Source: Apostichopus japonicus (taxonomy: Eukaryota; Echinodermata; Holothuroidea; Aspidochirotida; Stichopodidae). From it: a stretch of 64,000 nucleotides of DNA. Below are positions 23,797-62,443 of this stretch, piece after piece. Location: assembly GCF_037975245.1 (NCBI RefSeq), contig NC_092580.1:24321001-24385000 (forward strand), given 5' to 3'. A program made the position numbers and the translations under genes. Below the pieces are notes generated by a model, which worked only from the letters and a program-made list of their open reading frames with translations, was not told where the DNA came from and searched no databases. The first letter of the stretch is position 1; each line of letters begins with the position of its first letter.

Positions 23797-24722
23797 CTAA
23801 TCTGTCTCCAAATACCACAGTCCATATTTCTTATATCGTTCAAGCTTTGGTTGTAATCCTACAATCCAGTTATTATGTATCATCACTGGTCGTATCGGCC
23901 GATCTTCCAAGGGCGTCGAAGAATTAAAAAATTCAAATCCAGCTTGAAATAAATTTCTAGGTAACACTTTTAATTTCAGTTTCTGTTTACCTGATCGTCC
24001 CTTCCCTTTCTTCAGAGCTTTATTAAATTTACCTTGCTGTTCCGATCCTTCCTTTCTCTGTGGCGAAACGAGTTGTCGTTGCCATTGGTACACAACGAAT
24101 CTACTAGCAGCTGTATTTCTAAAGAAAGCATAACCAGCACAGTATATGATTTTATTTTCCTTATTTTCAGGATAATCGTGTATTACTGCTATATCCAAAT
24201 TTCCTGATACATAAGGGAATGGATCAGCTAGCCAAACAATGTCCGTGTCCATAAAGAAGACATCTTTTCCGTTCTTTAACAATTCTATAATGTAAGGCAC
24301 CCTTTTGTCTACAAGTTGGTTGTAGGCCTTTGATCTCCAGTTTTCGGCGTCGGAATTTGAGAGTTGAAGGTGGGTCATTACTGTGGTGATATTTTCCCAC
24401 TGACTCAACACATCGTAAGATTTTCTGTCTTCGCATACGATAACAATTGTAGGGGTTAGATTTAAACGGCGAATACTGAGAATAAAATTAATTGTAATAT
24501 CGATGAAGGCTTGGTTGATGGCAGTCAAAACGACTGGTGACCGGACCGAAGAGGCAATATCTAAGAGTGTCGGAGGAGGTTTGTTGTCTGTTTTCTGCAG
24601 TTTCGTTGAAGTTTGTTGTTTATCACCTGGATGGCTGTTCGATACCACTGGCTGGTTATGAAAGTCTTCACTTCTCACATACTGCCCTCCTTCCATGACG
24701 TCATCTGTTTTCTGGAGCATGG
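23797..24722 (-). CDS. Glycosyltransferase exon 2: catalytic domain
   Basis: A single large exon holds the stem, the DxD motif and the stop codon. Such single-exon catalytic domains are common in expanded glycosyltransferase families. The intron (24723-26020) has no feature that I can identify. Confidence 0.92.
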
Positions 24723-26102
24723 CTGGTAATCGAGGATGAAAAACATCTTAAAATGATGTCGTCTTTTTTTTTATTTATTTTTTATTATTGTCATCTTTAA
24801 TGAGGGTAGTCCTGCTCGGTGCAGAAGCACTGCTTTCCAGCGGAGCCCTCAATATAAAAATACATAATGTAGTAGAAAACGGTAAACATCCAAAAGCACA
24901 AAAAGAACGGCAAGAAGATAGACAAACAAAATTATCAGACATCTAAACAAAATATATATATGAGTTTCCGTCTGTTTCTTTTACATCACAACGCATAAGC
25001 AAGTAAACCATCTCAACAAACCATTTCCTGTAGGTTCAGCTCGCATTGATCTTCGAAATTTCACCTATAGTAAACTGGATACAGTCAAAGGAAGGGGTGG
25101 ATGAGAGGGGTAGGTGAGAGGGTTATAGGGAAGACAATGACGAGGTTATTAACGATATAATGCATCTAATGAAGGGAAACCGATTATTTAGCCCTTCATT
25201 TACCTCAGTATGCCCGTAACCTGACGGTAGTTTAGAGAAAAATATATATCTAGACGAATTATTCAAATATTTTCTAGAGGATATATAGTGAATTATGTAC
25301 AGGTTAGAGGACATTGTATCTTTACGTCCGAACACATGTCGGACAGAGATAAGTCTTTGGGTATGGCCTATTTATTAAGAAAGAAAAAGGTTGAGGGCAA
25401 ACTATCGAGAAACGGTGACGCGACTGCGCAAAGAGTGTAAACAAATGGTACCAGTTCTGCTCTCTGAGACTCTGTGCATGGAGTTAACAATGTCAGTCTT
25501 ATCTTCGAATGATATATTTTCCATCAAGTCTATTTAATATGGCGCCAATTTTCCCAGCCTATTGATCCAACAGATTGAAGGCACGGTAATGATATTTTCG
25601 ATCATTTGTTGCCATCTTCTAATCAGTATTCTGTCAAATTGAAACTTTCTCAACCAAGAGTCAAGTTCAATCGAACTGCCGGAAACATTCAGTGAGAATG
25701 AATAAAATAGAGTGCATTGCAGTGCTTATTACAACCGGTCATATAAAATAATATAAACTAATATAAAATATAAAATAATGGTTCCAAACATTTTGAAAGA
25801 AAAAGAAGAAAGAAAACAGAACCACCGACAATTTGGAGCCACTTGTAATAAGCTGGATGGAAGTTTAGAAGGAAGTTGTCTTCTTTCATTCTGTATATTG
25901 CTGCTGTACCAAACACGTTCTACAATCACTTACTAAACAAATATAATACCAAAGCTCAGGCCTATTCAGTAATTCAGTAAACCAAGGACATTAAATGAAA
26001 ACAAAAATTAGTATACTCACCTCCGCGGTACTGATAGTACGTTAAACAGCAGACGGTAAAACATATACACACTGTGAATGCGTACAGCATACACTCACGC
26101 AT
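23797..26102 (-). CDS. Type II membrane glycosyltransferase, GT77/Nucleotid_trans-like (xylosyltransferase-like), 2 exons
   Basis: Exons 26102-26021 and 24722-23797 join in phase 1 across a GT-AG intron (donor GTGAGT, acceptor ACCAG) into a 335-aa protein. Residues 1-5 are a short cytosolic tail, then a membrane anchor (LYAFTVCICFTVCCLTYY, about 6-23), a Ser/Thr/Pro-rich stem, and a lumenal catalytic domain. Its key motif is DVFFMDTDIVWLADPF, whose DTD is the metal-binding DxD site that contacts the nucleotide sugar. The C-terminal MIHNNWIVG followed by K-x3-YKKYGLW also fits Pfam Nucleotid_trans proteins such as plant UDP-xylose:fucose xylosyltransferases. Animal members are often annotated by that name, but donor and acceptor here are unproven. 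It probably acts in the Golgi. The first ATG is chosen because it opens directly into the anchor; a start at 24720 would lose it. Confidence 0.9.
26021..26102 (-). CDS. Glycosyltransferase exon 1: membrane anchor
   Basis: Twenty-seven codons plus one base, ending at GTGAGT. It encodes MREC and a Cys-rich hydrophobic helix. The split codon with exon 2 gives Ala before Met-Leu-Gln. Confidence 0.88.
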
Positions 26103-37669: not shown

Positions 37670-38848
37670 GGTTATGGGCCCAGGTATCGGCTTTTATTTG
37701 AGGGTGATTAGGAGAAGTACGAACTGTGGGAGATAAAATTTGTAGGCCAATGCGATTGCAAAAGCTTCACAAAGTAATTTTACTGTCGGACGACGAAGTT
37801 GATGAAGAGAAGAATGCAGAAGGTTTCGCAAAACTAGTTCAATGCCTAGATGATAGAAGCCTATCGTTAGTTATTCTTGATGCGAAAGACAACTGTAGAA
37901 GACTGTAGAAGACCCCTACAGATTCTATGTCAACATTACCTATCGAAGGGGAAGTCAAGAATTATTTCTCTTTATGCAGAGTTGACCTCCTTAAAGAAGA
38001 CAAATGAAGAGAGCGTGACTGACTACATGAGAAGAGCTGAAACGGCAGCGACTTCACTCAAAACGTCTGGTGAGGTTATTTAAAAGTGACAGTCTACTGA
38101 TTGCAATGGTTCTGAAAGGGATACCAAGTGAGTTGAAGTCCTTTTCTACTGTGGTCACACAAAAAGACAAAGTTCTAAAATTCAGCAAATTCAAGGTTGC
38201 CCTAAGAAGTTTTGAAGAAATGGTCGACAATCCAGGGATGATAGTGTCATGAAGATGATGGGAGGCACATGGACATCAAATACTAACAACAGACAGCTGA
38301 TGTCCAGGAAGCATGGAGGATTCAACGGTGCATGCTATACATGTGGAAGGCTTGGACACAGAGCAGCAGACTGTGGAGTGAATGACCAAATGATTAAGAG
38401 AAGATGGTGTGATGTATGCAAGAAAAACAACCATGACACAAAATGGTGTAGGAGGAAAGATTCAGTTATGACTTTGGACAACTCCCAAAATGATGTTAAA
38501 GGTGAACACAATTTTCTCTTCAAGGTGGGCTTTGATACCGATCAACTAGAAAGGGTACATGAAGCAAAAGGTCTGTTAGTAGATTGTGGGGCAACAACCC
38601 ACATAATTAACAATGAGTCAAAGTTTGTAAGATTTGAAGATAACTTCAATCCCGGTGACCATTACGTTGAATTAGCTGATGGCAGTAGAAACAACAATGT
38701 TGCCATTAAGAGAGGTGATGCTCAAATTTCACTAGTAGATTCCACTGGTAAAACCCAAACAAGCATCTTAGAAAATACATTATATTTACCATCCTTCAAA
38801 CAAAATATCTTTTCGGTGCATGCTGCAACTGAAAAGGGTTCCTGGCCG
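37655..38848 (+). pseudogene. copia gag and protease remnant
   Basis: Gag-like blocks lie in at least three frames: a start at 37655 inside the LTR, an early stop near 37709, a middle part with SLYAELTSLKKTNEESVTDY, then a C-terminal part open from 38249. The last has a zinc knuckle CYTCGRLGHRAADC, a second CDVCKKNNHDTKWC, and a protease motif LLVDCGATTHI, where the usual D-S-G is D-C-G. The frame ends at 38870 after NIFSVHAATEKG. Confidence 0.85.
37670..37683 (+). promoter_or_regulatory. copia primer-binding site (half tRNA-iMet)
   Basis: GGTTATGGGCCCAG follows the 5' LTR with no gap. It is complementary to the anticodon-stem region of initiator tRNA-Met (CTGGGCCCATAACC), the half-tRNA priming known for Drosophila copia. 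Confidence 0.85.
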
Positions 38849-39530
38849 ATATTGCACCACATGGATCTATAAAATGTATTAGAAGTGATCAAGGGGGTGA
38901 ATTTGTGTCAAAAGCTTTTGAATCTTTGCTTGTAAGGAATCGTATCAAACACAAAAAGTCAGCGCCACATTTGCCACATCAAATGGTACTGCTGAAAGAG
39001 CATGACGTTTCACTGTTTGAGATGGCAAGATGTTTACTATTACAGTCACAGTTGCCATAGGCACTGTGGACTAATGCTGTTATGTTTTCAGCTTATGTTC
39101 GTAACAGATGTTACAATTCAAGACTGTTCGTAACAGATGTTACAATTCAAGGCTTTGGAAAAAACCCATTTGAGTTATCTACCAGCAAAAAACCCAACAT
39201 CAGTGGTATGCATGCTTTCGGTACCATCTGTTATGCCTTCATACAAAACAAGACTTAATTAGATGCTAGAAGTGAAAGTGGAATTTTCCTAGGCTATGAC
39301 AAGGGAAGTCCAGCTTATCTTGTCTATGATCCTGATAGCCAACTAATGAAGAGAGTCAGGTTTGTTAAGTTTCCAAAGAGAGCTGACATTGTTTCTAATG
39401 GTGATAAGTCTTGTGGTCTACCCAGTAACCCAATTGACGATGATGGTCTCATTATGAGAAGTAAACCAGAATCCGTCACAGATAAAGAGCCACCTTATCA
39501 AGCTAGTGATAGAAGAGACAAAGGCTGTTA
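38849..39530 (+). pseudogene. copia integrase remnant, N-terminal part missing
   Basis: Starting at about 38861 it reads integrase core blocks IRSDQGGEFVSKAFE and later GIFLGYDKGSPAYLVYD, the usual copia integrase C-terminal motif. The HHCC zinc part and the first catalytic Asp region are absent: protease-linked sequence runs directly into the second Asp block, so an internal deletion removed them. Stops and a small tandem duplication (about 39096-39146) break it further. Confidence 0.8.
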
Positions 39531-39709
39531 ATCAAATTGTCAACTCTGAGCACAATATAAGGGAACAGTCTGATCAAGAGAGTTATGGTTCTGGTAGGTT
39601 GTACCCACGTAGGGAGCCAAAAAGCCCTAACAAGCATCTTGAAGATTACAACCTTGACAATGATGACAGTGTAAACTATTAAATACATTATTGCTACAGA
39701 TTGGCTGAT

Positions 39710-41234
39710 GTACCAAAGCACATACCAAGATGCTGTCACTTGCCCTGCCTCAAGTAAATGGCAGAAAGCTATGAAGGATGAGATCAGTGCCATCAGAGAG
39801 AATGACACTTTCAAATTAAATCCCCTACCAGAAGGTAGGAATGTAGGGGGGTAGGGGTTTAAACTACGAAACTTGGCCCAAATGATGAAGAGCAATGTAA
39901 AGCTCGCTTTGTTGCTAAGGGGTTTTCCCAATTACCCAATGTGGACTACAATGAGACGTTCTCTCCGACCGCATGAATCTCATCCATCCGAGCGTTGATG
40001 CAACTGACCATCAAACTGATGTCAAGACAGCTTATTTAAGTGCTCCAATAGATTGCGAACTGTAACTTGAACAACCAGAAGGTTTGCAGTAAGTGGCAAG
40101 AATGGTGAAAAGTTGGTCTGTAGACTGAAGACCAAGTCTACACCAGCTGTAGCACAATGTTGTATGAGGTCTGTATCCTAAGTGGAGTGGCTGCTGAGTG
40201 CTAATACCTTGCACAGCCTATCAAAAGTGTATGGTCTTAAGCAAAGTGGTCATAGTTGAAATAGCCTGTTGCATTCCTACTTTGTTGAGGAGGGTTACTC
40301 TCAATCACTTGTAGACTCTTGTGTGTATACCAAACATGACGAGATTGATATGACCATAATTCTTCTCTGGGTGGATGATATCATCATCACAACCAATAGA
40401 GACTCTACACTAGAGGATATCAAGAGGGATTTAACCCTCTAGATTCAAAATGAAAGACTTAGGTGGAATTTTGATGTTTCTAGGGGTATGCGTTTTATCT
40501 GCGAAGGTGACATGATCAAAATAAACCAGTCAAGGTATATAGAGAAAATGTTGCTGTAGTATGGTATGAAGGACTGTAAAGCATGATCAACTCCATGTGA
40601 AATGAATGTAGACAAAGTTGTTGAGAATCCTGAAGATCAGATAGAGTTAACTGATGCTAGACTCTATAGAGAGATAGTTGGTAGTTTGATCTAGACGTGA
40701 TGACATGAACCGGGCCAGATCTGTGACATTATACTGTGACAAAGTTGGCATAGCACATGTCAAACTCAACCATGGCAAAGCATGCTTTAAGCTACCTTAA
40801 AGGTACAATCAATGAAAGTTTAAGCTAAAGAAGTCTTTGGAACCTCTAAGTTTAATTGGTTTTTGTGATTCGAGTTGGGGCATATTCAGAAGACCATGGT
40901 AGCATTACAGGTTATTGTTTCCAACTTTCTGAGAACGGTCCACCGATATCGTGGAAAAGTACTAAAACAGCTTACAGTTGCTTTGTCCACATGCAAAGCT
41001 GACTATATGGCGTTAGCAGCTGCTACACAGCAGGCTAAATTTTTAGTACAGCTATGGAGAAGCATGACAAATATCGACTCGGTGAACTCTGTTTTGCTGC
41101 ATTGTGACAACCGAGGTGCCTTAGCTCTAGCTAAAAATCATGATATAAGGTACCACTTTATTAGGTTGGAAGTCCAGAAAGGTGTCTTACAACCTGTTTA
41201 TATTCCATCAGAACAAAATGTTGCTGACATATAA
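39710..41234 (+). pseudogene. copia reverse transcriptase and RNase H remnant
   Basis: Broken frames contain copia reverse-transcriptase blocks: WQKAMKDEISAI, FVAKGFSQ, DVKTAYLSAPID and the catalytic LLWVDDIIIT (a variant of YVDD). RNase H follows with LSTCKADYMALAAATQQAK, HCDNRGALALAKN and IPSEQNVADI. Stops and frame shifts separate them, so no active enzyme is made. Confidence 0.85.
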
Positions 41235-41480
41235 TTACCAAACCTGTGAGCGGGTCCACACTACAGAAGTTAAGCTGTCAGATCATGGGTAACTAGGTAG
41301 CTGAGTTATTGAGGCAGAACTAAATGTTTTCAACTCATTTACAGTTTGAAATGGTTACCATTTTATATTCCATATATCAATTTTTATGGAAGGTTTAATT
41401 ATTCTCAAAGTTTTTCTTAATATTCTTGATTTTCAAAAGCATATATACTGTTTTCCCATGTTTATTATGTAACCACCATA

Positions 41481-41655: not shown

Positions 41656-41998
41656 TGGAGAACCTTAAAAATTTCAGTTGACTGTAATAAAATGTGTTTT
41701 TAGCATCTTTTAAGTTGTCTTTTGACATATAGTAACTTGAAACTATGATTAGAGTACTTGTAAGTAAGATTTTATAATAGAAACTTTAATTGCACGTCAC
41801 AGAGAGAATGGTATGAATTAGTAATTATTAAACAGTGGATTAAAGATCAGAAAAATCACAATGTGCAATAAGAGGTTAAAATGACATCCTTTGGTTCAGT
41901 TTGGGATTGAAGAACAATTGACAATGTCTCTCAGAATTGTGAATGTTGTTATTTCACTTACAACAGCTTGATGTATCTTTGTAATTATATTTTAACAG

Positions 41999-42162
41999 GG
42001 AGACCTGTGCAGGAGATTGTCTCAAGCATGCGATTTCATATGAAAAGACCAGGACGGGCCCTAATCTTTGTTTTTACTTGTACGGCTTTTATCCTCGCGT
42101 TGATGTACAGGACTTCATTTTACGGAGAGACTGGAGCTCTTCACCCTTTTTTTGATCCAAAG
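41999..42162 (+). CDS. GalT-like gene, first coding exon (signal anchor)
   Basis: The exon begins after TTTAACAG, so an untranslated exon must lie upstream, probably beyond the copia insertion. ATG at 42028 is chosen because it is followed at once by MRFHMKRPGR and the membrane helix; a second in-frame ATG four codons on is also possible. The upstream frame is open but has no better start within the exon. Confidence 0.8.
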
Positions 42163-45100
42163 GTTTGTAACTTTTTCTTCAGTTGTTAAAATTGGCCCTA
42201 GAGCTCTGTTCTGTTAATATTGCAACATTCAATATGACAGTTTGAATCACATGTTTTATTTCATGTTTGCTATCATCAAGTTGGAAGTGGGATATGCAAT
42301 GTTTCTTTGTCCACCTCATCAGATTGTCTAAAGTTCGTCTCTTTCCAGCCTTTATGTTACCCCAAGATACCACAGTTATAAATTTGGCAATGAAAGGTTT
42401 TCAATACTGTGAATGTTGCAATCTATAAGTGAAGCGTTTACATTATCCTTGCAGCTAGTCCTTGCAAAACATGAAAACTAATGCTCATGATTTTTCCTAT
42501 ATAATTTTCCTACACTCCAAGGATAACTGATACAGCCTACAGTAACATCACATTGGCCAGTGTTCAATAGTTATGATTTTCATTTCTATCCAGGACAGTC
42601 AACGGTATGCGGGTTGCCATTATCTACATGGCCAGGCCCAATCAATATTTTCCTTGGAGGACACTGTTCAGGCGTGGCAAAAGGCCTCCACGTGCAGGTA
42701 TAAGTTTAATGTTGCAAGTTGTGTTGATTTTAGTGTCTCATGCTTTTATAGATCAGGGAACTGTTTACACGTGAATTGGCAAGAATGGTTTAAGTTGAAT
42801 GTTTTTGATGTTCTTGTAAATGTATTTTATGGTAGCATATGCCCATTAAAAGCCCCATTGACTTACACACTAAATCACAAAAGTAATGTGGTCTCTAAGT
42901 CTAGATAGAAGTTTTCACTAGCTAAACGCTACCCATCACCGGATAGCTGTCAAGTTGGCCTTTCATGGTACCATCAATTTTCTGTATCATGACCATGTAG
43001 ATTTTTTGCAATCCGAGCCGGACGTTTTCGTCACTTGTAAACAAACCTCTTCACGCAGTAGTAAACAATTTTCCTACGTTACTCCTGGGAGGCCTAAAGG
43101 GGTCTAAAATTGCCTCAATTGACCCAATATTCTCACCACATGTACTTCCATTCATGCTCTTCAACATGCAAGCCACAAAAAACTAGATCATGATTGATAA
43201 CAGGTCAAAAAAGATGTTCTCCTGCTGCTTTCCTGAAGGAGAACAAACGAGCGGATAGATATAGACTCTAATTGGAGTTTGCCACCTTATGGTACTGGAA
43301 TGCACATCAGTGTTAGAACCTGGAGTATACAAAATGCTTGTCATATATGATGGCCAGTGAGATTTTCATTTGAATGGGGAAACCCAATGAAGGAAAAGTG
43401 TAATACCATTACAAGTTAATATTTTCTGTAAATGGGTATATTTGCAAATTAAGCTGTCTAGATAAGTGATTTATGGATGATAAACTTTTCAACAGTTGTT
43501 TGACAGTTTGGGGTATGCATCCTTGAAGAAGTTTAATAGCTCTTGCTCTTCCATGTTTGATAGTGGAATTAAGTAGAAAACAGATTAAATATATGTTGAG
43601 ACCTTGAATGCACAGGTTCCTGTGAAACCATAATAGAATGATAAATTCTTTGTTTGTGAATGATAAAGGTAAAAAAATTGAGATGTTAAAGAAAAGACAG
43701 CCTCTGCATTGGAACTAGTTGATTTGCTTTTGGTATATGATGCAAGCGCAATGTCTGTACATATAGAACCTGGAAAATATTGATTACGTTGCATCTCTAA
43801 AACAGACAAACACTGACATACTTAAAACTGATTCTTAATACCATGACTACTGGAGACAGGTAAATAAAGTATTGGTTCTTGAAAATAACCAAAACCAGTA
43901 AGTTTTTGGAGATTTATTCGTTTCATTAGATAGATGTAAAAAGGGTAAAAATTCTCTTATGATTGATTCTTTCTCCTTAGGGGTTTATACAAGAAGTTCA
44001 GTGCAATTTACAGAGTTTCAACGGCTACAAGCGATGTAGTTGTGAAAGAGCCGTTCTTAGCAAAGGTGCAGTCCTGGCTTCCAGGGGTACCGCAAGATCA
44101 ATTTCAACGCCAGGCAAGTAATGAACATGTCTAGTAAACAGTTTAATCACAGAATCCTGAGACTGTGTTCCACATTCTCTCAGTTCAGAAATGCAATGTA
44201 TAATATCTATAAATGTCAGCAGTCTTGCATCATTCAAACTGAGCTTGCTTAAAGTAACTGGCAGCAGTAAAATACTGGTCTCTGGTTTTATGGTGTTTCT
44301 GTCTTCTTAGTTAATTACCAGCTATTGAGGGAGTTTTAAAGTAGAGTAAGTGTCCCAGAGTGGATAATGCTGCCTGGAGGATGGCACAAAGACATGCCAT
44401 GAATTTGGAACACCCGCCATCATTACAACAGATGACCTTTAGTCAGAGGATTGGAATGAGTTTTAGTATATATTAAAGGTATTGCAATGCAAATCAACAA
44501 TAAAAATCATCATTCTGATCTTTATTCAACTATATCTGCAACTCTAAGAAAATTCTTGCTTTAAAGATGTTAAACTCTCCACGTACAACCTTCCTTTCTT
44601 TGGTTAACAACCCTTCATGCTTCCACTCTGACCCCATCTCCCTTCTCCCTTGACCCCTCCCCCTCCTGTCACCCTCAAACTGAAAAGCAAGGGAGAGGAT
44701 ATTTTGTACTATAACATAGTTTAATACTCTTTTTTTATTCTACTCTCAGAAAATTATTTCTGTGTTAAACAAGTACACCTATGAACAGAGTATCATTAAT
44801 CCAACTCGGTCCAAGAGACCTGGCATCACGGCAAGAGTAGACCTCGACAACTACATCAATGACCTGGTTGAAAAGAGCTCCAAGAATTGTGATTTTTGCC
44901 AGTATTCTGAGTAAGTCTTTCTTTTGATATGTCATCATGCATTTGTTATTTTGTGTTTGTTGTTACTTGTTTTTTTCTAATTAGTAATATATTTGGACAC
45001 AGTCAATAGCTTTCTTTACCTGCAAAATGTTTATCTTTTTCGAAATCTGCAATTTTGAAACTTTGCCTTGGCAATGATCGTCAAAGTTTATGTCCTGTAT

Positions 45101-48100
45101 TGTTTTCCTTTATTTCCAAACTCTTTCTTGTTTAATCCTTCCTTGTTAAATTTTTGATAGACAAAAGTGGTATACTAACATTTTTACATATATTGAATCT
45201 TTCCTTTACTAAGGGAACATCAGATTGTGGCAAACTCAAGACAAAATGCCTTTTTAAATTATCCTTATCATGCCTGGTTGGTCAGTCATGAAATATAAAG
45301 TATAATAAGATGATCCAAGACTCCTAATTGTATCAAATATCCCTTTGGGACAATTTAAAGACAACAATTTCAATTTTTACTGCATAATTTTAAAATGTTG
45401 AATTGTCAAGCTGTTGAGCAACACTTTGCATCGGATTTCATTATAAACAGACACCTTTTTAAACATGGAACTAATTCCACCAAAGAAGTAACTTTAGAGT
45501 TAGCCTTGATGATATGTCCTGTACATTTCCTCTATTCTCTTTCACCAGGAACACAGCTGAGAACAGCTTTGGTAGGATCGAATCAAAATATACTTATACA
45601 GCAGCCAATGTCTTTCCATTTGATGGTTTCCATGGAGTAATCATCTTTAAAAATCACCATCCATTACATTTCACTTTAGATGAATTTTTAGATGCCATGA
45701 GTGTAGCTAGGAGGTGGTAAGTATTAAAAGAAAGAAAGAAAAAAATACAACAGATTTGAAAGAAATGTAAAACTGGTCTACCCTTCCCCTTCCCCCACCC
45801 TCCCCCCACCAGCCATATACAAAAGACAAAAAAAAGAGAAGGCTAGAAAAGGCAAATGCTGTTTGGGTCATGGAGTTGAGTGACAGTTGGAACAAAGCTG
45901 ACACCACACTTTTACCCCAACTGCAAAATTTTCTGGATTAAAACTCATTCAAAAGAAACCATGGAATTCCCATACAAAGGGAAGTGTAAGCAATCACACA
46001 ATATTGCACACATTCATGTGGCTGCTCAACAACATAAAGTAAAAGCTTTCCGTGCTGAGAATTGCTATCTTGTTTTATAATATAAATAAAACTTTCCATA
46101 TTTGTATGGTCTTCCATCACTCCCACAAACTGTGAGCCGTTGCTATGGATATTTAACACCTTGAGAAGTTTATCTTGCCCGAAAAAAAAATCAAAATGGC
46201 TGGAAGTAAGAAGGAGTACTTCGTACCTTAAGTACATTAAAAATATTGAAATATAAGTGGACATCAAAAGAAAGAGAGCCATAGATGTTAGACTTGATTT
46301 AGCTGAGTAATGATATATATGTAGCTGTCTGTAGTATCTTATTGTTGATAAATGTCACCATGTTGACTTGATTTAACTGAGTAATGATATATATATATAT
46401 ATTAGCTGTCTGTAGTATCTTATTGTTGATAAATGTCACCATGTTGACTTGATTTAACTGAGTAATGATATATATATATTAGCTGTCTGCAGTATCTTAT
46501 TGTTGATAAATGTCACCATGTTGACTTGATTTAACTGAGTAATGATATATATATTAGCTGTCTGTAGTATCTTATTGTTGATAAATGTCACCATGTTGAC
46601 TTGATTTAACTGAGTAATGATATATATATATATATTAGCTGTCTGTAGTATCTTATTGTTGATAAATGTCACCATGTTGACTTGATTTAACTGAGTAATG
46701 ATATATATATATATATTAGCTGTCTGTAGTATCTTATTGTTGATAAATGTCACCATGTTGACTTGATTTAACTGAGTAATGATATATATATATTAGCTGT
46801 CTGCAGTATCTTATTGTTGATAAATGTCACCATGTTGACTTGATTTAACTGAGTAATGATATATATATTAGCTGTCTGTAGTATCTTATTGTTGATAAAT
46901 GTCACCATGTTGACTTGATTTAACTGAGTAATGATATATATATATATATTAGCTGTCTGTAGTATCTTATTGTTGATAAATGTCACCATGTTGACTTGAT
47001 TTAACTGAGTAATGATATATATATTAGCTGTCTGTAGTATCTTATTGTTGATAAATGTCACCGACTACGTTCTCTCTTGTCAGGATGAAACGTGCTCACG
47101 GAGAGAACTCTAATTACAAGTATCCACATTTGACCTGGGACTGTCTTCCGAAGGGAAGTACCAGCCAGGTACACTCGCATGCTCAGGTCACTCTCAACTC
47201 CATCTCACACTATGGTAAGATGTCTGTTTATTCATACTTGTTACAAATCCTAGAATCTGATTGGCCTGTTGTTGTCAGATGACTGTGCATTTAACCTAAT
47301 GGATCATTTGTGATAATTAAAACTCATTGATGGATGAATATAAGTTGCAGAACAAGTAAGTGTCTTGGCAAGCTTAATTACAAAGTTCTTCCTAAGTTAA
47401 TCCAAAACACTCAAAGTAGATCAAATATGGTATCACAACTAGCCCCTCATTGTAAACACCCCGTGGCAAAAAGGATGACCAACATTTATGAGCAAGCAAA
47501 CATTCAGCCTGAAGAATACTAACCATAGGGTGTGATAACAACAATAACCTCATTTAGCAATGCTGGCATCAAAACTAGTATTAATGTTATTAATATAATG
47601 GCCTTAAGCAGCCATCAGAACAAAAAATTGACCAAATGTTAGTGTCAGAAGTTACTGGAGGCTTCAAATCAGCAAAACAGTCTCCCAAATTGGATAAAAA
47701 AAAAGAAAAAAAAGGAAAATCAGCTAAAACTGCATGCCACAAAATTGTCCCACATGTAACTGAGGCTGGTAGGCATTGTGAAATAACTGTCTCCAAGGCT
47801 GATCTCATGAACTATTTAGTGTGAAGGAAATTACAAAATTTTTGATACAAAGTTATTGATTTTCTCTCTGACTATATTCTCATTGTCTATTGTCTTCCTT
47901 CCTGTTATCATTAATTCACGACCATTTCACTTCCATTTCCAATTAAACAAGTCTGTCTGTCTCGTTTATTCAAGTTTCTTCTACCCGTTTTCCCTTTTAA
48001 GTGTGCCTTTGTAGAAAATCCTACTAGGGTCCGAACATCAGGCCCTTCATACTTTGATAACAGTTATTAACCATTTTTACCTGATCATCTGTATGTTAGT

Positions 48101-51100
48101 GCAATTTTACCTTTCTTTCTTGTTGTTGATTATTGATTATTGAAAATGATCCATCCTTGACCTTATTACAGGTCAAATGCAGCTACTAACCTCAGCAGCT
48201 TTAAAGTTTGAGAAAGACTTTCCTGGTGAAAGCTACTTTCAGACACTTTTTGAGGTAAGCATATATAACAAACTGTTAGTAACAAACAAATCATCCCCAA
48301 CCACAACCACCTCCCCCCATCCCGCCCCTCCCAAATATTTCACTGAAGTGGTGGCCCATTACACGTTGGATATTGCAGTGCAATGTGTCATCCTGTCAGT
48401 TCGTATGAAGCACAATATGATTATTGTTCATGTTAACATTTCTAACAAATAGTGTTATTTACATAAAAAAGAGAAGAAAACAAAGGTAATAGGACAACAG
48501 GCTTGGTTTTGAATGAAAGACTGGATGTTGGTCCTGCAGATTCATCGTCATTAGTGTGTGTTTCAGGACAGGTGGCATGCCCTCATTTATTGCCTTTGCC
48601 AAAACTTGTACTTAGCTATACTACCATACTTGGTATATCTTGTTGGGAACTCACTTGTTGCTGCTGGTTTTCAATTAGTGTCCTGTATAGTCAGGTTACA
48701 TGTAAAAGGGTTCCAATCCAACATTTTTAGTGTCTCTTTTACAATTTGGACCAATTAAGGTCTATAATAAACTTTAAAGCATTTGTCTATAATGAATAAT
48801 AAATTATGCTCATAGAGATGACTTTGCTCAAATTGCTACTTGTGTTATAACCCCCCTCCCGAATTGGCATTGATAATACCAAGCAAGGAGATTTTACAGG
48901 TAATTATAACTGATTCTTTAAAGTATTGTATCTGACCCCAAGACCGAAACTTAAAGTTTTTAATCCCATTGGGATGATTACCTTTAGCTCTTTGTAGATT
49001 TGTTTGATTAGCTGTTCTTAAAACTTTAAGATTTTAATGTCTATAATGAAAAATACATTATCCTCATACAGATTGCTATACCCTAATTCTTACTGGTGAT
49101 ACTATCCCTTCTCCCCCTTCTTCCTACCCTCTTCCCCTTCTACCCTCCACAACAAGAAGAAGTGATGCACAGGGCAACTGGAAAAACAGAACTGTCACAA
49201 ATTAGACTTATTATTGATAGATCCTGTAACTGACCCACAAACAACATCCAAAAGGGGCTTCAATTTATCAGAAACTGATCTCAGTTTTGATAATGCCAAT
49301 AATGACTGTATTTCATCATACTAATTAACAGTAATGAATTAATTACTTGAGATACTGCTCTCTTTTCTTCTAGATTCATCGAGGGTTGAACCTCTCAGTC
49401 TGTTTAGGGGACGCTAAGGCCTTTACTCTGATAACGCCGAAGAAAGATGATGATATATTTGTCATAGCACAGAAACCAACCAAGGATTTTTATAGGTAAC
49501 TTGTAACTGATTTTAAAGAGCACTTTATCTGACCCCATGGTGGACACCCATTTGTTTGAAGTTTGAGAGGGGTTGGGGAGGGGGTTGGGGGAGGGGGCTG
49601 GGGAGGAGGAGGAGGAGGAGGGGGAGTAGTTTGTTTTATTTAATGTGATTATGATAATGTAAAATAAAAATTTAATGAACATGTGATGGTTCAGTAGATG
49701 AGCAGTATGTGAAATACTTTTCATTCTATATTTCCACTTCACAATGACAATATTACTCGTGGTAAACAAAATATCACTTTGGTGTATGCTTATTGAACAA
49801 GATGTACTAGTCATGGACCGTACATTGGATGTGTCTAAGTGCTTGCAAAACATTGCAATATTTTTTGTTATTTTGAAGTACAAGCAAGCCATATAAACTT
49901 GTGAAAGAGTGTTTCAAAGTTTCTGTTATGTTTAGCTATTATTTGCAGTACAAGCAAGCCATATAAAGTTGTGAAAGAGTGTTTTCAAGTTTCTGTTATG
50001 TTTAGCTATTAGTATAAGAGCACGGGACAAAAAACTTTACCAATCACCACTTAAAGTATATTTTCAAGTGGCCGTTGAGTTTGTCAGAGCTCTGTTAAAA
50101 TTACATACAGTTTATGGATACAATATTGTCTTAATGATTAAGCTCTCTTACAACCACAATGAGTAGTCCAGTGGAAAAATGAAACAGAAACTATCAAAAA
50201 AATCTATAAATGATGTAGAACAATAGATTTATCAAACAATACATAATGACACAATAGATTTATAACACAATAGGTCTATAACTTGACACAACAACATTTT
50301 ATTGATTGCGTAGATAAAGCTCTCGTGAAACAATAGTAGTCTGGTGGGAAAATGAAAACATATCAAATCTAAATTTGATATTTCTCTCTCAGACTTTGTC
50401 CTGTAGATTAACCTGTGTGCTTTCCCCTAACAGCCTACTATATCATGTGCTACGAGCCTACATTGATGAGATGAAACTATATGCATGGAGCATGGTTATC
50501 TTCTTCCCGACACTGGTGAGTTGATGACTAATTATGTAAAAAGAATGTTTTGGCAGTAACATACATTATGTGGCACTCATAGATTAGACATATGCCAAAA
50601 CTGCTAGTCAAACACATCAACTTGCCATCTTGTTCCTAACTCAAGAAATTGTTATTTCAACTTATCATTTTCTTATTGCCAAAATCCCTTCTGTTGCCCC
50701 AGAGTGTTCCAGTGGTGGATCACTGTATGGCCAGTAACCTAATTATGCCTACTCTAGAAATTATTATTTCAAGGTGACTTATGTCAAGGTAACCCCAGGG
50801 AGTCAAAAGGGGTGTGACCACTGTGTGGCCACTGACCTAATCATGTTCAAGGCTTTATCTCCCTATATTCAAGGAAGTCAATAACAGTTACTGTAAAGCC
50901 ACTCTCACAAATGTCTGTGTCAATTTGATTGTTCTTATGGTTGTATTGTTTAAATATTGAATTTCATCAAGTGACAGGACTTAACTTAGGTCTTCCTCAT
51001 TTGACATGTCACAATTTCAATATATAAGAACAGCTTTTACATGGGTAATGTGTTTCCTTTTCATTTCTTTGTTTTGAATATGAACTACGCAGTTTTCAGA

Positions 51101-53055
51101 TGAAGTTTGTTTGTATTTGGGTCCAAAACAGTTTCTCCATATTGTGGATGACTGGTAACATTGGTTTTAAATTCACTGGGAGTTGCTCTCTTCATTTTAT
51201 GCTGAAGTAATATGCTTATTTACATTAACATACTTACATTTACTGAAGTAATATGTCTATTTACAATAACATATTAACATTTACTGAAAGCAGTCAATAA
51301 TTAGTACTGTACTGATGCTGTTAGTTCATTGTATGTAATGGCTATTATCCAAACCAGGTTAAGGAAATGAGCAGGTAAAGGAAATTTGTTGAGAGACCTT
51401 GTGTACAGTACATAAATATGCAACTTGTATGGGCAATAGAAATTAAACAGTCAAAATTCCTTCAAACAGTGTATCAAATGTTGCAAATATACAATGTTTT
51501 CATCTAAGTACCCTCTGTTTTACCACAATAATGGGAGGGCCACCCCTCATTTTAGACTCCTCACCTGGAAGACATAACATCTCAACCCTTCCAGTTACCA
51601 AAAATCATGGTTGCACCCCTGATTATGAGTTTGAAATTTCCGTTACCTCTGTCAGGATTCATTTGGTAGTTGGGACGAAGGCTCCATTCCAGTCGTAGCA
51701 AGGTTGATAAGTCGAGGTCCTCCAGATATTCAGAGGTCAGACATAAGCTCTTTGGAATTGTTTGCGGTAAGTAAATCAAAATGTTTAGGCGGGGGTGGGG
51801 GGGGGGTCGGGATGGACCCTGGAGGAATCTGCACCCTAACTATCGGAGGGCCTTTTGTTACAAGCGATAGAACTCCAGGAATTAGCAGATTGGGTTTTCC
51901 TGAAACTTCAAAGGGCTCAGCCAGTTGTCATTGCCTCATAATTTCTTTAAATACACAATTCACTCGATTGGAAAATATTTAATTTATTTTGTTACTTTCA
52001 TGTTTTAGCAGATTTCGAAATTTTTGAAAAAGTTTGATAATTATTTTCAGGGAAACAAACATCCCAGGTGCTTAATTTTAACAAGGAGTGACTGCATCTA
52101 ACTATCATCAATTAATTGGATTTGTTATTTTATATTGCAGCAATTTTTCAGTTGATATTGATCATTGTTTTGATGCCATTTTATAGTTTAAGGTTTAACC
52201 AATAATTAGATCACAGGCTTGACTAGTCACATTTTATTGTGGATAGTAAAATAAAAATGAAATAGTTATGCTATTTTTTTTACGTGATTAACACTTATAT
52301 GGAAAGAGTCTTGGTGGCAAAATATTGAAAATTGAATCAAATTCGCTTATTAATTTATTAGTCATGATAAAGAAATAAATGATGAATTGCATCCTTTTCT
52401 TTTGAGATACAATCTGTATGGTTTGGCGAAATATTTGACCTTAGGGCAAAGAAGCTACTTTAGAGCCATGTAGCTATGCAATAAAATTGAAAATGTTATA
52501 ATCTTATGATATTACATTAGTTTTGCGCTTACCTTTACCAGCATCATTTGAGATAATCAAGAACTGTTATTTGTTTTTGATATATCATACTTATGGTTAT
52601 GCATGCGAATAAAAAGTTATTTAACTTGAAGGACACAAATGTACCAGGATTGAGTGGAACAGTTGGGTATTTGTTTATCACAAAATAGATTCTATATTCT
52701 ATGAGCCTTTCTTAGGGGTGGGGGTGGGGGTGGGGGTGGGGCAAGGGTTGGGCATAGGGATGACTGCAATCATGAATAAATGAATGACACCATAACAAGA
52801 ACAGCCATTTGTATGTGTTTTATTATTTTGTTTGGATTTGCATGTGATTAAAAAAGTTATGGAAGAGAAATTTTCCAGGATTTGGTGGGTTTTTTCTTTC
52901 TTTCTGAGGAGGCAATCAAGCTGTCATTTCTGGAATTTAAGAATCTTTCATAAATGATTTCATTTCAGGCTTCAAATGTCAACACGGATCCATTCAAGGT
53001 GATACCTAGCATCAAGAAATCACTCCGTCAAGACGGAATTGACAGCCAATGCTAG
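42028..53055 (+). CDS. Membrane-anchored galactose-1-phosphate uridylyltransferase-like protein (GalT/HIT superfamily), 11 exons
   Basis: Coding exons 42028-42162, 42594-42697, 43981-44113, 44750-44910, 45549-45716, 47084-47214, 48172-48254, 49374-49495, 50434-50515, 51656-51766 and 52969-53055 agree in phase and give 438 aa. Residues 1-10 are basic, followed by a single membrane helix (ALIFVFTCTAFILALMY, about 11-27), so this is a type II membrane protein with a lumenal body. The body shows GalT landmarks in order and spacing: CDFC (C171, C174), ANVFPFDGFHGVII (about 197-210), NHHPLHFTLDE (H214), then HSHAQ (H264, H266, Q268). In bacterial GalT the CxxC, the later His and the first His of HxHxQ bind zinc, and the second His is uridylylated. 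GalT is normally soluble and about 350 aa. Substrate unknown; a nucleotide-sugar phosphorylase or transferase is possible. Confidence 0.88.
43981..44113 (+). CDS. GalT-like gene exon 3 with GC donor
   Basis: The exon (start CTTAG|GGG) encodes GLYKKFSAIYRVSTATSDVV and ends CGCCAG|GCAAGT. The donor is GC, not GT, but otherwise a strong match, and phase 0 into exon 4 is exact. GC-AG introns are a minor but normal class in animals. Confidence 0.82.
46290..47062. repeat. Minisatellite in intron 5 of the GalT-like gene
   Basis: Ten units of 76-82 bp, each with TAGCTGTCTGTAGTATC, TTGTTGATAAATGTCACC and TTGACTTGATTTAACTGAG, followed by a (TA) run of variable length. The CTGCAG variant and the TA lengths recur every four units (about 314 bp), a higher-order pattern. 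The open frames on the minus strand here are a by-product of the repeat. Confidence 0.95.
47084..47214 (+). CDS. GalT-like gene exon 6: HSHAQ active-site exon
   Basis: It encodes KYPHLTWDCLPKGSTSQVH and then SHAQVTLNSISHYG. The HxHxQ motif marks the GalT branch of the HIT superfamily. Its acceptor (TCTCTCTTGTCAG) begins only about 20 bases after the end of a 0.77-kb tandem repeat array. Confidence 0.92.
48013..48050 (-). repeat. Degenerate GTTGGCC-family fragment
   Basis: TCCTACTAGGGTCCGAAC and then ATCAGGCCC is a mutated match to the right half of the element at 27353-27459 (TCCTGCTATAGGATCGAAAC, GTCAGGCC). It lies in intron 6 of the GalT-like gene. Confidence 0.5.
49560..49626 (+). repeat. 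G-rich stretch in intron 8 of the GalT-like gene
   Basis: Many runs of 4-6 G separated by T, A or CT, then (GGA)n. On the sense strand it could form G-quadruplexes in the pre-mRNA. It begins about 65 bases after the donor of exon 8. Confidence 0.7.
49877..50014. repeat. 70-bp tandem duplication
   Basis: Two adjacent copies share AGTACAAGCAAGCCATATAA and TTTCTGTTATGTTTAGCTATT, with few differences. It lies in intron 8 of the GalT-like gene, so it is a recent local event with no sign of function. Confidence 0.85.
52715..52741 (+). repeat. Intronic G-quadruplex motif
   Basis: Five runs of four or five G separated by single T bases, in intron 10 on the sense strand and about 230 bases before the last exon. 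Single-base loops make this one of the most stable parallel quadruplex designs. Confidence 0.85.
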
Positions 53056-59807: not shown

Positions 59808-62443
59808 TTACGAAGACACACCTCCTTGGTTAGATTCAATGTCTTTTGTTTTGGTCTCTAATGCGTGTGCTGCCTTCATTTCTCTTTGACGGACATTTGT
59901 GTAAGCTGCAGAGCCGAGGAGGACGCAGAAGTTCCCCAACCACCACAGGGCAGTCTTGATGTCTTCAAAGTGGATGACCGCTATGATGGTTTGAACGCAG
60001 GCCTTGGCTGTTCCACTGACGTTGTGGGTGAGCGGACTTGTGACTTTGATCTGGAGACCAGAAATGTAGCCGATGGAAAAGCCAAAAAGACCACTGATGG
60101 TCATAATGGTCCAAAAATCACTGTCGTACAATTTACTGAAATGGTAAATGGTGGAATATTCTTGCTTGAAAAGCATGATGGGAATGAAAAGTACAGACGC
60201 GTTGATGTTGTTGTAGAACATGAGCTTCCATATATTGCCCTCCACCGCTGGTAACACTTTCTTGGTGAAAATGGAATTCAGGGAGACGCAAAGACTCGCG
60301 AGGATTCCAAATGCCACACCCAAGTACGAGAGCTCACCTAGGGGTAGAACAGCAGGAGACAGATGAGTATAATAACCAGAAAACGAAAGCCTTTAGTGGT
60401 TACGATGGCCAAATGTTATCATAGTGTGGTATTAAGCCATACATGTTAATATTCATGAACTTGTGCAAAGCAAAACAAAGAGGATTATCTATTGGCTAAT
60501 GCGGAAACATATAAAGGAAGGTATCAGGAATCAGTCATCATGTTGACAAAGTCGGTTTAGTGACATAGTATAACAAGCACCCAATGGACACTATGGTTCC
60601 TTGCTTAAAGGAAATAAATGTGTTGTATGTCAGTCATGCCACTAGGATAGTCATGAGATGGGAACCAAAAACCATAAAGGAAGCTAATTCTAATAAATAC
60701 CTTCCTCACTACCAGAGAGGAAGATATAATCACTGTAATGTAGTTTATGGTTATGACGAAAGCTCAGGAATCCTTTGCAATCGCAAGTGTGTGTGTATGT
60801 GACGGCCAGATAGTAAATCCAATATCTCAGAAAAGCACAAGTTGAGTCAATGTCATGCTTGGTAAGTAGATGCCCCATGATGTGTAGATATCTGCTACTG
60901 TTTGTGGTTCCCATCTCATGCATATTGATGAGTGGGTGGGCTTAATGTAAAGTTCTTATAATGGCATCTCTTTAACCCTTTGTCTGATTTAGTTCATACT
61001 TGGTATGGTGATGTGTTGTTGATGATAGGTACATGGTCATATAATCAAGAAATCAGCCTCATTGTTATTCATGAATGGGCGTGGCTAGAGTGTTATCACA
61101 GAGAAACACTAGTAAACATGATATCTCAAGACCAACAAGTTTAATCAATGTCATACTAGATGTGCCCTATTGATTGTATAATATTACATGAATATTAATG
61201 AGTGGTCCAGGTTTAACATAAATTTTTTAAAACGTCAATATCTCTTCAACAGTGTGTCCGATTTAGTTCATACTGGGTATGGTGATTTTTTTACATAGTA
61301 AGTATATGCTCTTTGCAACAACAACTTTAATTAATATCAATGAGTTGGTGGGTCTTTATTGGAAATAGTCAAAAACAGCTTGTAAACATGATATCTCACC
61401 AACCACAAGTTGAATCAATGTCATACATGGTAGACAGATGCCCCATGATTGACACTGGTAGAGGTCAAAAGTAGTCAACATATGTCAAACTCTGAAAACC
61501 ATTTAAAGATGATAACTCCAAAATTAAAGATGCAATAGATCTGCCAATTCTCAAATGGTATGAATTTCTTTTGGTGAACATAGTTTGGTCAAATTCAGTT
61601 CAAGTACAGTTTTCTGAAGGGGCTCTACCAGTCTTTAGCAGAACATAGAGTCATCCAGGAAAGTTAAACAAAAGTTGATATGTAGCATTGCTTTAAGCAC
61701 TCTCAAACCCTGTTTCACCCTCTGAGCTTCAAAGGTGTCAACATGTTATCTCAAATGGTGGAAAAATTGACTCAAGGTGTCAAGAGATTATCTAAATTGG
61801 TCTCAAATTGGCAATTTGTTTTGTGATTTATACCAGATGACTTGTAGGTTGTCAAAATATCTCACAGTGCAACAACCACTGTTGAGTTCACCTGTACATA
61901 GGATTTTCTATGTGGTGGTGTGTTTCTGAAGGTGAGGACCTTTTGTTGTGAAAAACATCCTGGGTGAGAATTCATATTTGTGTAATTCAGGGTGCTTAGA
62001 ACAAAGTGGTACAATACTTTTTTTGTGGTGACATGTTGCACTTACTGTAAACATTACACACAACATGAAATATCTTTTCTACCCAGGGTAAAAGTGGACC
62101 TTTGAAAATTTGGGTAACAGTTGTGTACACAACCAATCACACTCCAATCTCAGTCTCTATTATCTTCTTCACTAAACACAGACAATAAACAATAGAATAA
62201 AATCAATAGAATAAAATCAAAGAATGAAACCAATCACTATAACAGAAACCAATCACTATAACAGACAATAAATCAGTAGCTGCACAGAAAAAGTCTTGTA
62301 GTGTATTTACAGTAGAGAAGACAACAATGCTAACACTCTTTAACACTAACCTGTGTTGCCCTCCTGGTTGACACCAAGAATGAAACCAATCACTATAACA
62401 GCACAACAGGCGATGGCAGGCACTGAGGTAGCTTGCTTCAAAA
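59808..62443 (-). CDS. SLC35C1: GDP-fucose transporter SLC35C1 (last two exons)
   Basis: SLC35C1 exchanges GDP-fucose for GMP across the Golgi membrane and so feeds all Golgi fucosyltransferases. Exons 62443-62351 and 60337-59808 join in phase 1 across a GT-AG intron. The first encodes LKQATSVPAIACCAVIVIG, a transmembrane segment, then GVNQEGNTG. The second has GVAFGILASLCVSLNSIFTK, KVLPAVEGNIWKLMFYNN, FGFSIGYISGLQIKVTSPLT, HNVSGTAKACVQT and a hydrophilic tail of about 25 residues. These are strongly conserved SLC35C1 blocks; the NVSGTAKA segment is typical of the nucleotide-sugar transporter fold. About half the protein is here; the N-terminal exons lie beyond the right edge, past a satellite array in the intron. 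Confidence 0.95.
60820..61460. repeat. Diverged tandem repeat in SLC35C1 intron, about 270-300-bp period
   Basis: Two and a half units share CAAGTTGAATCAATGTCAT (60838, 61136, 61406), AGATGCCCCATGATTG-like words and TTTAGTTCATAC, GGTATGGTGA (60992 and about 61268). Mismatches are many, so the duplication is old. A possible dispersed repeat family. Confidence 0.7.

Follow-up and report, generated by a model that had tools for sequence, protein, structure and literature searches.

A gene of 11 exons in the 64-kb stretch of DNA analysed here (hereafter the window) encodes a 438-residue animal protein with a conserved HxHxQ motif, a hydrophobic N-terminus and a body that belongs to an uncurated protein family shared with Chloroflexota. 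With slightly less than even confidence, we take this gene to be functional and its product to be a type II membrane protein that has an enzyme of the GalT/HIT superfamily as its body. The GalT-like protein may split nucleotide sugars, at a site where such an enzyme would not be expected.

The gene was rebuilt independently from the raw sequence, which reproduced the 11-exon, 438-residue model proposed in an earlier sequence-only reading. The exons span 42028-53055 on the + strand, comprise 438 codons plus a stop and are consistent in phase. Nine of the ten introns are of the GT-AG type, and the remaining one, with the exon 3 donor, is GC-AG. The earlier start at 41999 proved to be the end of a splice-acceptor-like CAG (41997-41999) located 5' of exon 1, and the start codon lies at 42028. 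The exons of the rebuilt model are as follows.

42028-42162, + strand: exon 1, residues 1-45, with the start codon and the predicted signal anchor; the sole exon without homology support
42594-42697, + strand: exon 2; bacterial homology begins near residue 62, as judged from the model and the alignments
43981-44113, + strand: exon 3, with the GC donor; its start coincides with five residues that are inserted with respect to the 10 bacterial rows in alignment A4
44750-44910, + strand: exon 4, with the NPTRSKRP and CDFC motifs
45549-45716, + strand: exon 5, with N198 (GalT N77) and H215 (GalT H115)
47084-47214, + strand: exon 6, with D253 and HSHAQ
48172-48254, + strand: exon 7
49374-49495, + strand: exon 8
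50434-50515, + strand: exon 9
51656-51766, + strand: exon 10, with R389, R393, D402 and E407
52969-53055, + strand: exon 11, with the stop codon TAG

Repeats were observed in and near the gene. Copia-like retroelement remnants lie in several frames upstream of exon 1 (37871-41300, + strand), with a zinc knuckle and a Pol beta-barrel domain in 38216-38872 and the remainder assigned by eye. A minisatellite of 10 copies of an ~81-bp unit occupies 46285-47062 in intron 5 and ends 21 bases before exon 6.

Bacterial proteins encoded by single open reading frames (ORFs) are collinear with exons 2-11 of the animal protein (residues ~62-433). All splice junctions except the first (nine of ten, junctions 2 to 10) are backed by this collinearity, with the caveat that junction 2 is located at the five-residue insertion of the animal protein, and a chance assembly of exons is thereby ruled out. 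The junction between exons 1 and 2 lies outside this homology and shows a phase-0 splice fit of exon 1. Searching the animal's own genome with the GalT-like protein (E 0.001) gave 11 matches, all of which fall within the gene itself, ruling out a retrocopy or duplicate. Bacterial contamination was ruled out by the 10 introns, the 35-Mb contig and the presence of Wnt genes in the same assembly (41 Wnt matches in its 671.6 Mb, compared with 0 in 14 control genomes).

Residues 124-425, used as a query against Chloroflexota, matched 60/301 genomes with E values no higher than 0.01, and the best match (E 3.4e-57, 34% identity) covered nearly the whole query. The family itself is present in 47 of these 60 genomes (one by a partial match); the other 13 gave weaker best matches, down to E 0.0086, some of which may be chance. 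A profile built from 10 bacterial rows and the animal protein (A4) detected 59/301 Chloroflexota genomes at 1e-10, including 46/301 with near full-length matches at E below 1e-100. No match was found in the second sampled phylum, Pseudomonadota, either with the protein query (0/398 genomes, E 0.01) or with the profile (0/398, E 0.001); this empty set has no internal positive control, and the profile is the one that matched 59/301 genomes in Chloroflexota. Genome-wide presence counts cover these two phyla, and the bacterial alignments contain 35 or 10 of the 47 family proteins.

The animal protein and the bacterial family aligned in hhalign with P 1.4e-56 over residues ~62-433. The homology is thus collinear and nearly full length, and it covers the ~70 residues ahead of the first GalT-like motif. 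Since homology starts near residue 62, only the anchor and a short stem are extra; as judged by these alignments, the body is one inherited unit, and the additional part amounts to ~60 N-terminal residues, encoded by exon 1 and the beginning of exon 2. In a phylogenetic tree, the branch uniting the animal protein with 35 bacterial rows, as opposed to the three bridge rows introduced below, received a support of 100/100. The animal protein itself sits on a long branch (length 1.88) with no resolved place among the 35 bacterial rows. A recent transfer from the sampled Chloroflexota was not supported, given this placement, the long branch and a CxxC motif that is kept in the animal protein when 0/35 bacterial rows have Cys at C171.

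The bacterial members were found to have no curated family in Pfam (four members searched) or NCBIfam (one member), and one of the four gave two sub-threshold Pfam matches to unrelated models. Searches of plasmids, viral contigs and phages with the animal protein, and of prokaryote genome contigs with six of its exact peptide patterns, yielded no close relative, and no match came from profile scans of viral contigs or from a plasmid search with a bacterial query. Among the collections searched (plasmid, viral, prokaryote and phage), the closest relatives by sequence similarity are unnamed bacterial proteins.

Within HMMER's filters, and with E values up to 10 allowed, the animal protein had no match among Pfam or NCBIfam models, PF01087, PF02744 and the GalT models of NCBIfam included. 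The only chain returned by phmmer from the PDB was an adenosine 5'-monophosphoramidase, at a non-significant E of 0.27. Three bridge proteins (L125, L126 and L127), which are other uncurated GalT-like proteins of Chloroflexota with CxxC and HPHLQ or HPHSQ, were matched directly by the animal protein, with E values of 2.0e-7, 2.4e-7 and 6.6e-4, respectively. L125 matched the NCBIfam model galT_1 with E 3.4e-6, below the model's cut-off, and neither L125 nor L127 matched Pfam. In hhalign, the animal protein aligned with a profile of the three bridge rows (P 2.3e-15; 281 columns, 286 after realignment). This bridge profile aligned in turn with a GalT profile of 79 rows (P 5e-13) over its own first ~281 positions, short of its end.

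Direct comparison of the family profile with GalT gave P 1.6e-4 with the animal row and 2.7e-3 without it, and the animal row alone gave weak values of 0.044 against the 79-row profile and 0.043 against two GalTs. The corresponding scores against GalT were 32.3 for the bacteria only, 41.0 with the animal row and 22.7 for the animal row alone, and the bacteria scored 190.8 against the bridge. In 30 decoys, obtained by shuffling the columns of the bacterial profile, the highest scores were 23.9 against GalT and 22.5 against the bridge; the animal row alone is therefore not above the decoy maximum for GalT. We assign the GalT-like protein to the GalT/HIT superfamily because of the chain of profile homology through the bridges, not because of a direct GalT match. 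The earlier term GalT homologue holds in this superfamily sense, together with the two-His-plus-Gln motif. A reading as GALT with an anchor added is not supported: the protein is a member of a separate family that has no Pfam or NCBIfam model.

Alignment with E. coli GalT placed the motifs at the following positions.

44798-44821, + strand: NPTRSKRP, residues 141-148, aligned with GalT SPHRAKRP (R28, R31)
44888-44899, + strand: CDFC, residues 171-174, aligned with GalT C52/C55
45655-45660, + strand: H214-H215, with H215 aligned to GalT H115
47172-47186, + strand: HSHAQ, residues 264-268, with H266 as the predicted nucleophile

The last three are the CxxC, His-His and HxHxQ described previously, and NPTRSKRP is an additional motif that the earlier account lacked. 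That account had also measured a spacing of 50 between H214 and H264; the equivalent of GalT H115 is, however, H215, and the distance from H215 to H264 is 49, as between H115 and H164 in E. coli. By alignment, R28, R31, C52, C55, N77 and H115 of E. coli GalT correspond to R144, R147, C171, C174, N198 and H215, and S161, H164, H166 and Q168 correspond to S261, H264, H266 and Q268. The pairing of R31 with R147 rests on the direct GalT alignment and on L127, as L125 has a gap there.

Most of these residues are shared with the bacterial relatives. R144, R187, N198, H264, H266 and Q268 are invariant in 35/35 bacterial rows, R147 is kept in 34/35, and the position of S261 holds Ser in 32/35 and Thr in 3/35. 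The H, H and Q of HxHxQ are also kept in all three bridge proteins, each of which combines CxxC with HxHxQ. Towards the C-terminus, R389 (34/35), R393 (35/35), D402 (35/35) and E407 (31/35) are retained. Conservation is lower at C174 (Cys in 19/35), H214 (His in 25/35) and H215 (His in 8/35). Two replacements are found in the animal protein: D253 occupies the position of GalT N153, which is Asn in 35/35 bacterial and 3/3 bridge proteins, and S259 replaces a Gly found in 35/35 bacterial rows. D253 departs from the active-site set of GalT proper, the other aligned residues of which are kept.

Owing to D253 and S259, the GalT-like enzyme may be altered in activity. These two replacements at otherwise invariant positions, along with the long branch, are what would be expected of a catalytically altered or dead member (a pseudoenzyme) kept for nucleotide-sugar binding or structure. 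We consider this unlikely, as the protein has retained the nucleophile, its partner His, the Gln, both Arg residues and the CxxC/His set, and its reading frame runs uninterrupted through all 11 exons.

The placement of the protein in a membrane depends on one N-terminal feature.

42058-42108, + strand: hydrophobic segment, residues 11-27, behind the basic N-terminus MRFHMKRPGR, defined by hydropathy; a helix at 9-27 in a low-confidence model

This segment is the most hydrophobic stretch of the protein, with a mean Kyte-Doolittle value of 2.36 compared with a best value of 1.15 beyond residue 40. It is preceded by four Lys/Arg residues; positive residues before a hydrophobic stretch favour an N-in/C-out topology. 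A hydrophobic segment and charges that would suit an uncleaved type II anchor are present, in an exon that no homologue covers. Among 226 ATG-led open stretches of 45 codons in the window, 10 are at least as hydrophobic, and two of the 226 also have a net charge of +3 or more ahead of the stretch, the real one being counted in both cases; on its own, the segment is thus weak evidence for an anchor. A single-sequence AlphaFold model (mean pLDDT 41.5, pTM 0.25) showed at most the helix at 9-27, and the protein contains a single sequon, at N311. Met residues occur at positions 1, 5, 26 and then 228. With no Met between 26 and 228, translation of this exon set cannot start in the body before M228, and a protein begun there would be shorter by over half its length. 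A first exon located further upstream, or a different first exon, is conceivable.

Collectively, an N-terminal signal anchor is plausible, not proven. The sequence-only reading had proposed about 150 added N-terminal residues with a signal-anchor helix; the predicted anchor with its basic residues was retained, and the added length was reduced to ~60. A cytosolic enzyme, arising from a main transcript with an anchorless first exon or from an anchor on the cytosolic side, is in our view about as improbable as a pseudoenzyme. It would agree with exon 1 being the only exon without homology support, with the chance occurrence of comparable hydrophobic stretches and with the cytosolic, nuclear or mitochondrial location of known GalT/HIT enzymes. 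The phase-0 splice fit of exon 1, the gap between M26 and M228 and the four basic residues, by the topology rule given above, argue against it.

The bacterial relatives recur in particular gene contexts. We inspected 34 neighbourhoods of the 47 family hits (13 were left out), with no selection rule set beforehand, and measured distances between the ends of tblastn matches. In 22 of the 34, the gene lies directly after glgA (13), glgC (1) or purH (8) on the same strand, within 160, 311 and 409 bases, respectively, so that 14/34 loci have a glgA/glgC neighbourhood. All eight purH loci have purM and purF upstream. Of the 12 loci with neither context, one lies on a contig that stops ~330 bases before the gene on its upstream side, and in two glgA is found on the opposite strand at a distance of ~4.3 kb. 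pyrR and pyrB follow within ~5.3 kb downstream at five glgA loci and at one locus without glgA. One representative each of glgA, glgC, purH, purF and nicotinate phosphoribosyltransferase (NAPRTase) was checked in NCBIfam, where the glgC piece, a fragment, stayed under the cut-offs, and purM, pyrB and pyrR were named by eye. At four of the 34 loci, all of the purH type (L128, L131, L138 and L160), a NAPRTase match touches the gene or lies within ~530 bases.

GlgC and GlgA have ADP-glucose as their shared metabolite, which makes ADP-glucose phosphorolysis an obvious candidate reaction for the bacterial enzyme; an adenine-nucleotide role would suit the purH position, though less specifically. The position after glgA, glgC or purH suggests that adenylylated sugars or nucleotides undergo chemistry of the phosphorylase type and not that of classical GalT. 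Animals are not known to make ADP-glucose, so the bacterial context is not directly transferable. A strict galactose-1-phosphate uridylyltransferase moved to the membrane could account for the potential zinc ligand set (C171, C174, H215 and H264) and for the Arg-rich NPTRSKRP at GalT positions. It is nevertheless very improbable, because GalT models fail to match the animal protein, its own similarity to the 79-row GalT profile is weak, N153 is replaced by Asp and the bacterial relatives often follow glgA or purH (galK and galE were outside the genes looked for). Moreover, an ordinary GALT gene, in which both GalT domains are matched, is located elsewhere in the same genome, on contig C13.

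For the preferred type II enzyme, we propose that H266 would attack a nucleotide sugar, or a dinucleotide, at its alpha-phosphate, giving a nucleotidyl-histidine and releasing the sugar phosphate. The HxHxQ form of the motif, as opposed to HxHxH, makes phosphate or a sugar phosphate the favoured acceptor: where hydrolases have their third His, the motif has Gln, and the nucleotide would be handed to one of these acceptors and not to water. A HINT/FHIT-like hydrolase of nucleotide sugars or dinucleotides, to which the non-significant monophosphoramidase match would point, is the least probable alternative, as Gln at the third motif position in 35/35 bacterial and 3/3 bridge rows is the transferase/phosphorylase pattern. 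The bacterial context and the motif make nucleotide-sugar phosphorolysis the leading idea, and the likeliest reaction would be NDP-sugar + Pi → NDP + sugar-1-phosphate. The likeliest place of action would be the lumen of the secretory pathway, where the protein would be held by residues 11-27 with its basic N-terminus in the cytosol.

It is possible, though doubtful, that the protein is a lumen-facing nucleotide-sugar phosphorylase of this animal lineage, in which a GalT-family enzyme known otherwise from bacterial glycogen/purine gene groups is combined with a signal anchor and splits nucleotide sugars, or bacterial ADP-sugars entering the secretory/endosomal lumen, with phosphate. To our knowledge, nucleotide-sugar phosphorolysis has so far been placed in the cytosol only, and we know of no current model of Golgi glycosylation that includes it in the lumen. 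Among the papers listed by open-licence PMC searches, none dealt with a membrane-anchored or lumenal GalT-superfamily enzyme.

Two other ORFs in the window resemble nucleotide-sugar genes. A 194-residue ORF at 59808-60392 (- strand), downstream of the GalT-like gene and convergent with it, is of the triose-phosphate/nucleotide-sugar transporter (TPT) type, with matches to PF03151 (E 3.7e-10) and, in the PDB, to GDP-mannose transporter 1 (E 2.8e-7); it resembles the GDP-fucose transporter SLC35C1. A 316-residue ORF at 23797-24747 (- strand) contains a nucleotide-diphospho-sugar transferase domain (PF03407, E 1.3e-29). Three genes related to nucleotide sugars in a stretch of 64 kb are at most suggestive; the order of genes in animals seldom mirrors pathways.

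A family of enzymes for which Pfam and NCBIfam have no model thus spans an animal and Chloroflexota, and its recurrent bacterial context (glgA/glgC or purH) offers a testable substrate class. If the animal member faces the lumen, the nucleotide-sugar pools there would be open to phosphorolysis.

Among known systems, the nearest is the Chloroflexota GalT-like family (L089-L118 and L120-L124), with near-full-length collinear homology at 28-36% identity and the same HxHxQ, Arg, Asn and C-terminal RG...D...E motifs. In contrast to the animal protein, its members have ~360 residues and no anchor exon, lack the first Cys of CxxC in all 35 rows and carry Asn at the D253 position. GALT, represented by the copy on C13, is a distant homologue via the bridges, and ten E. 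coli GalT residues are matched; it is soluble and is encoded by a separate gene, whereas the animal GalT-like protein leaves N153 unmatched and is not recognised by GalT models. The Arabidopsis ADP-glucose phosphorylase At5g18200 (PDB 1z84), which has no membrane anchor, shares the two-His HxHxQ motif, and the genes for its substrate often adjoin the bacterial relatives of the animal protein. It was the best PDB match of the family profile, at a non-significant E of 0.49; two motif blocks aligned in matching order, of which one scored 0.5 bits. PMC6329318 names At5g18200 as the Arabidopsis protein most closely homologous to GALT. GDP-glucose / GDP-L-galactose phosphorylase (GDPGP1, VTC2), likened here by published description, is presented in PMC11066809 as a case of phosphorylase chemistry performed by a HIT protein that lacks one His.
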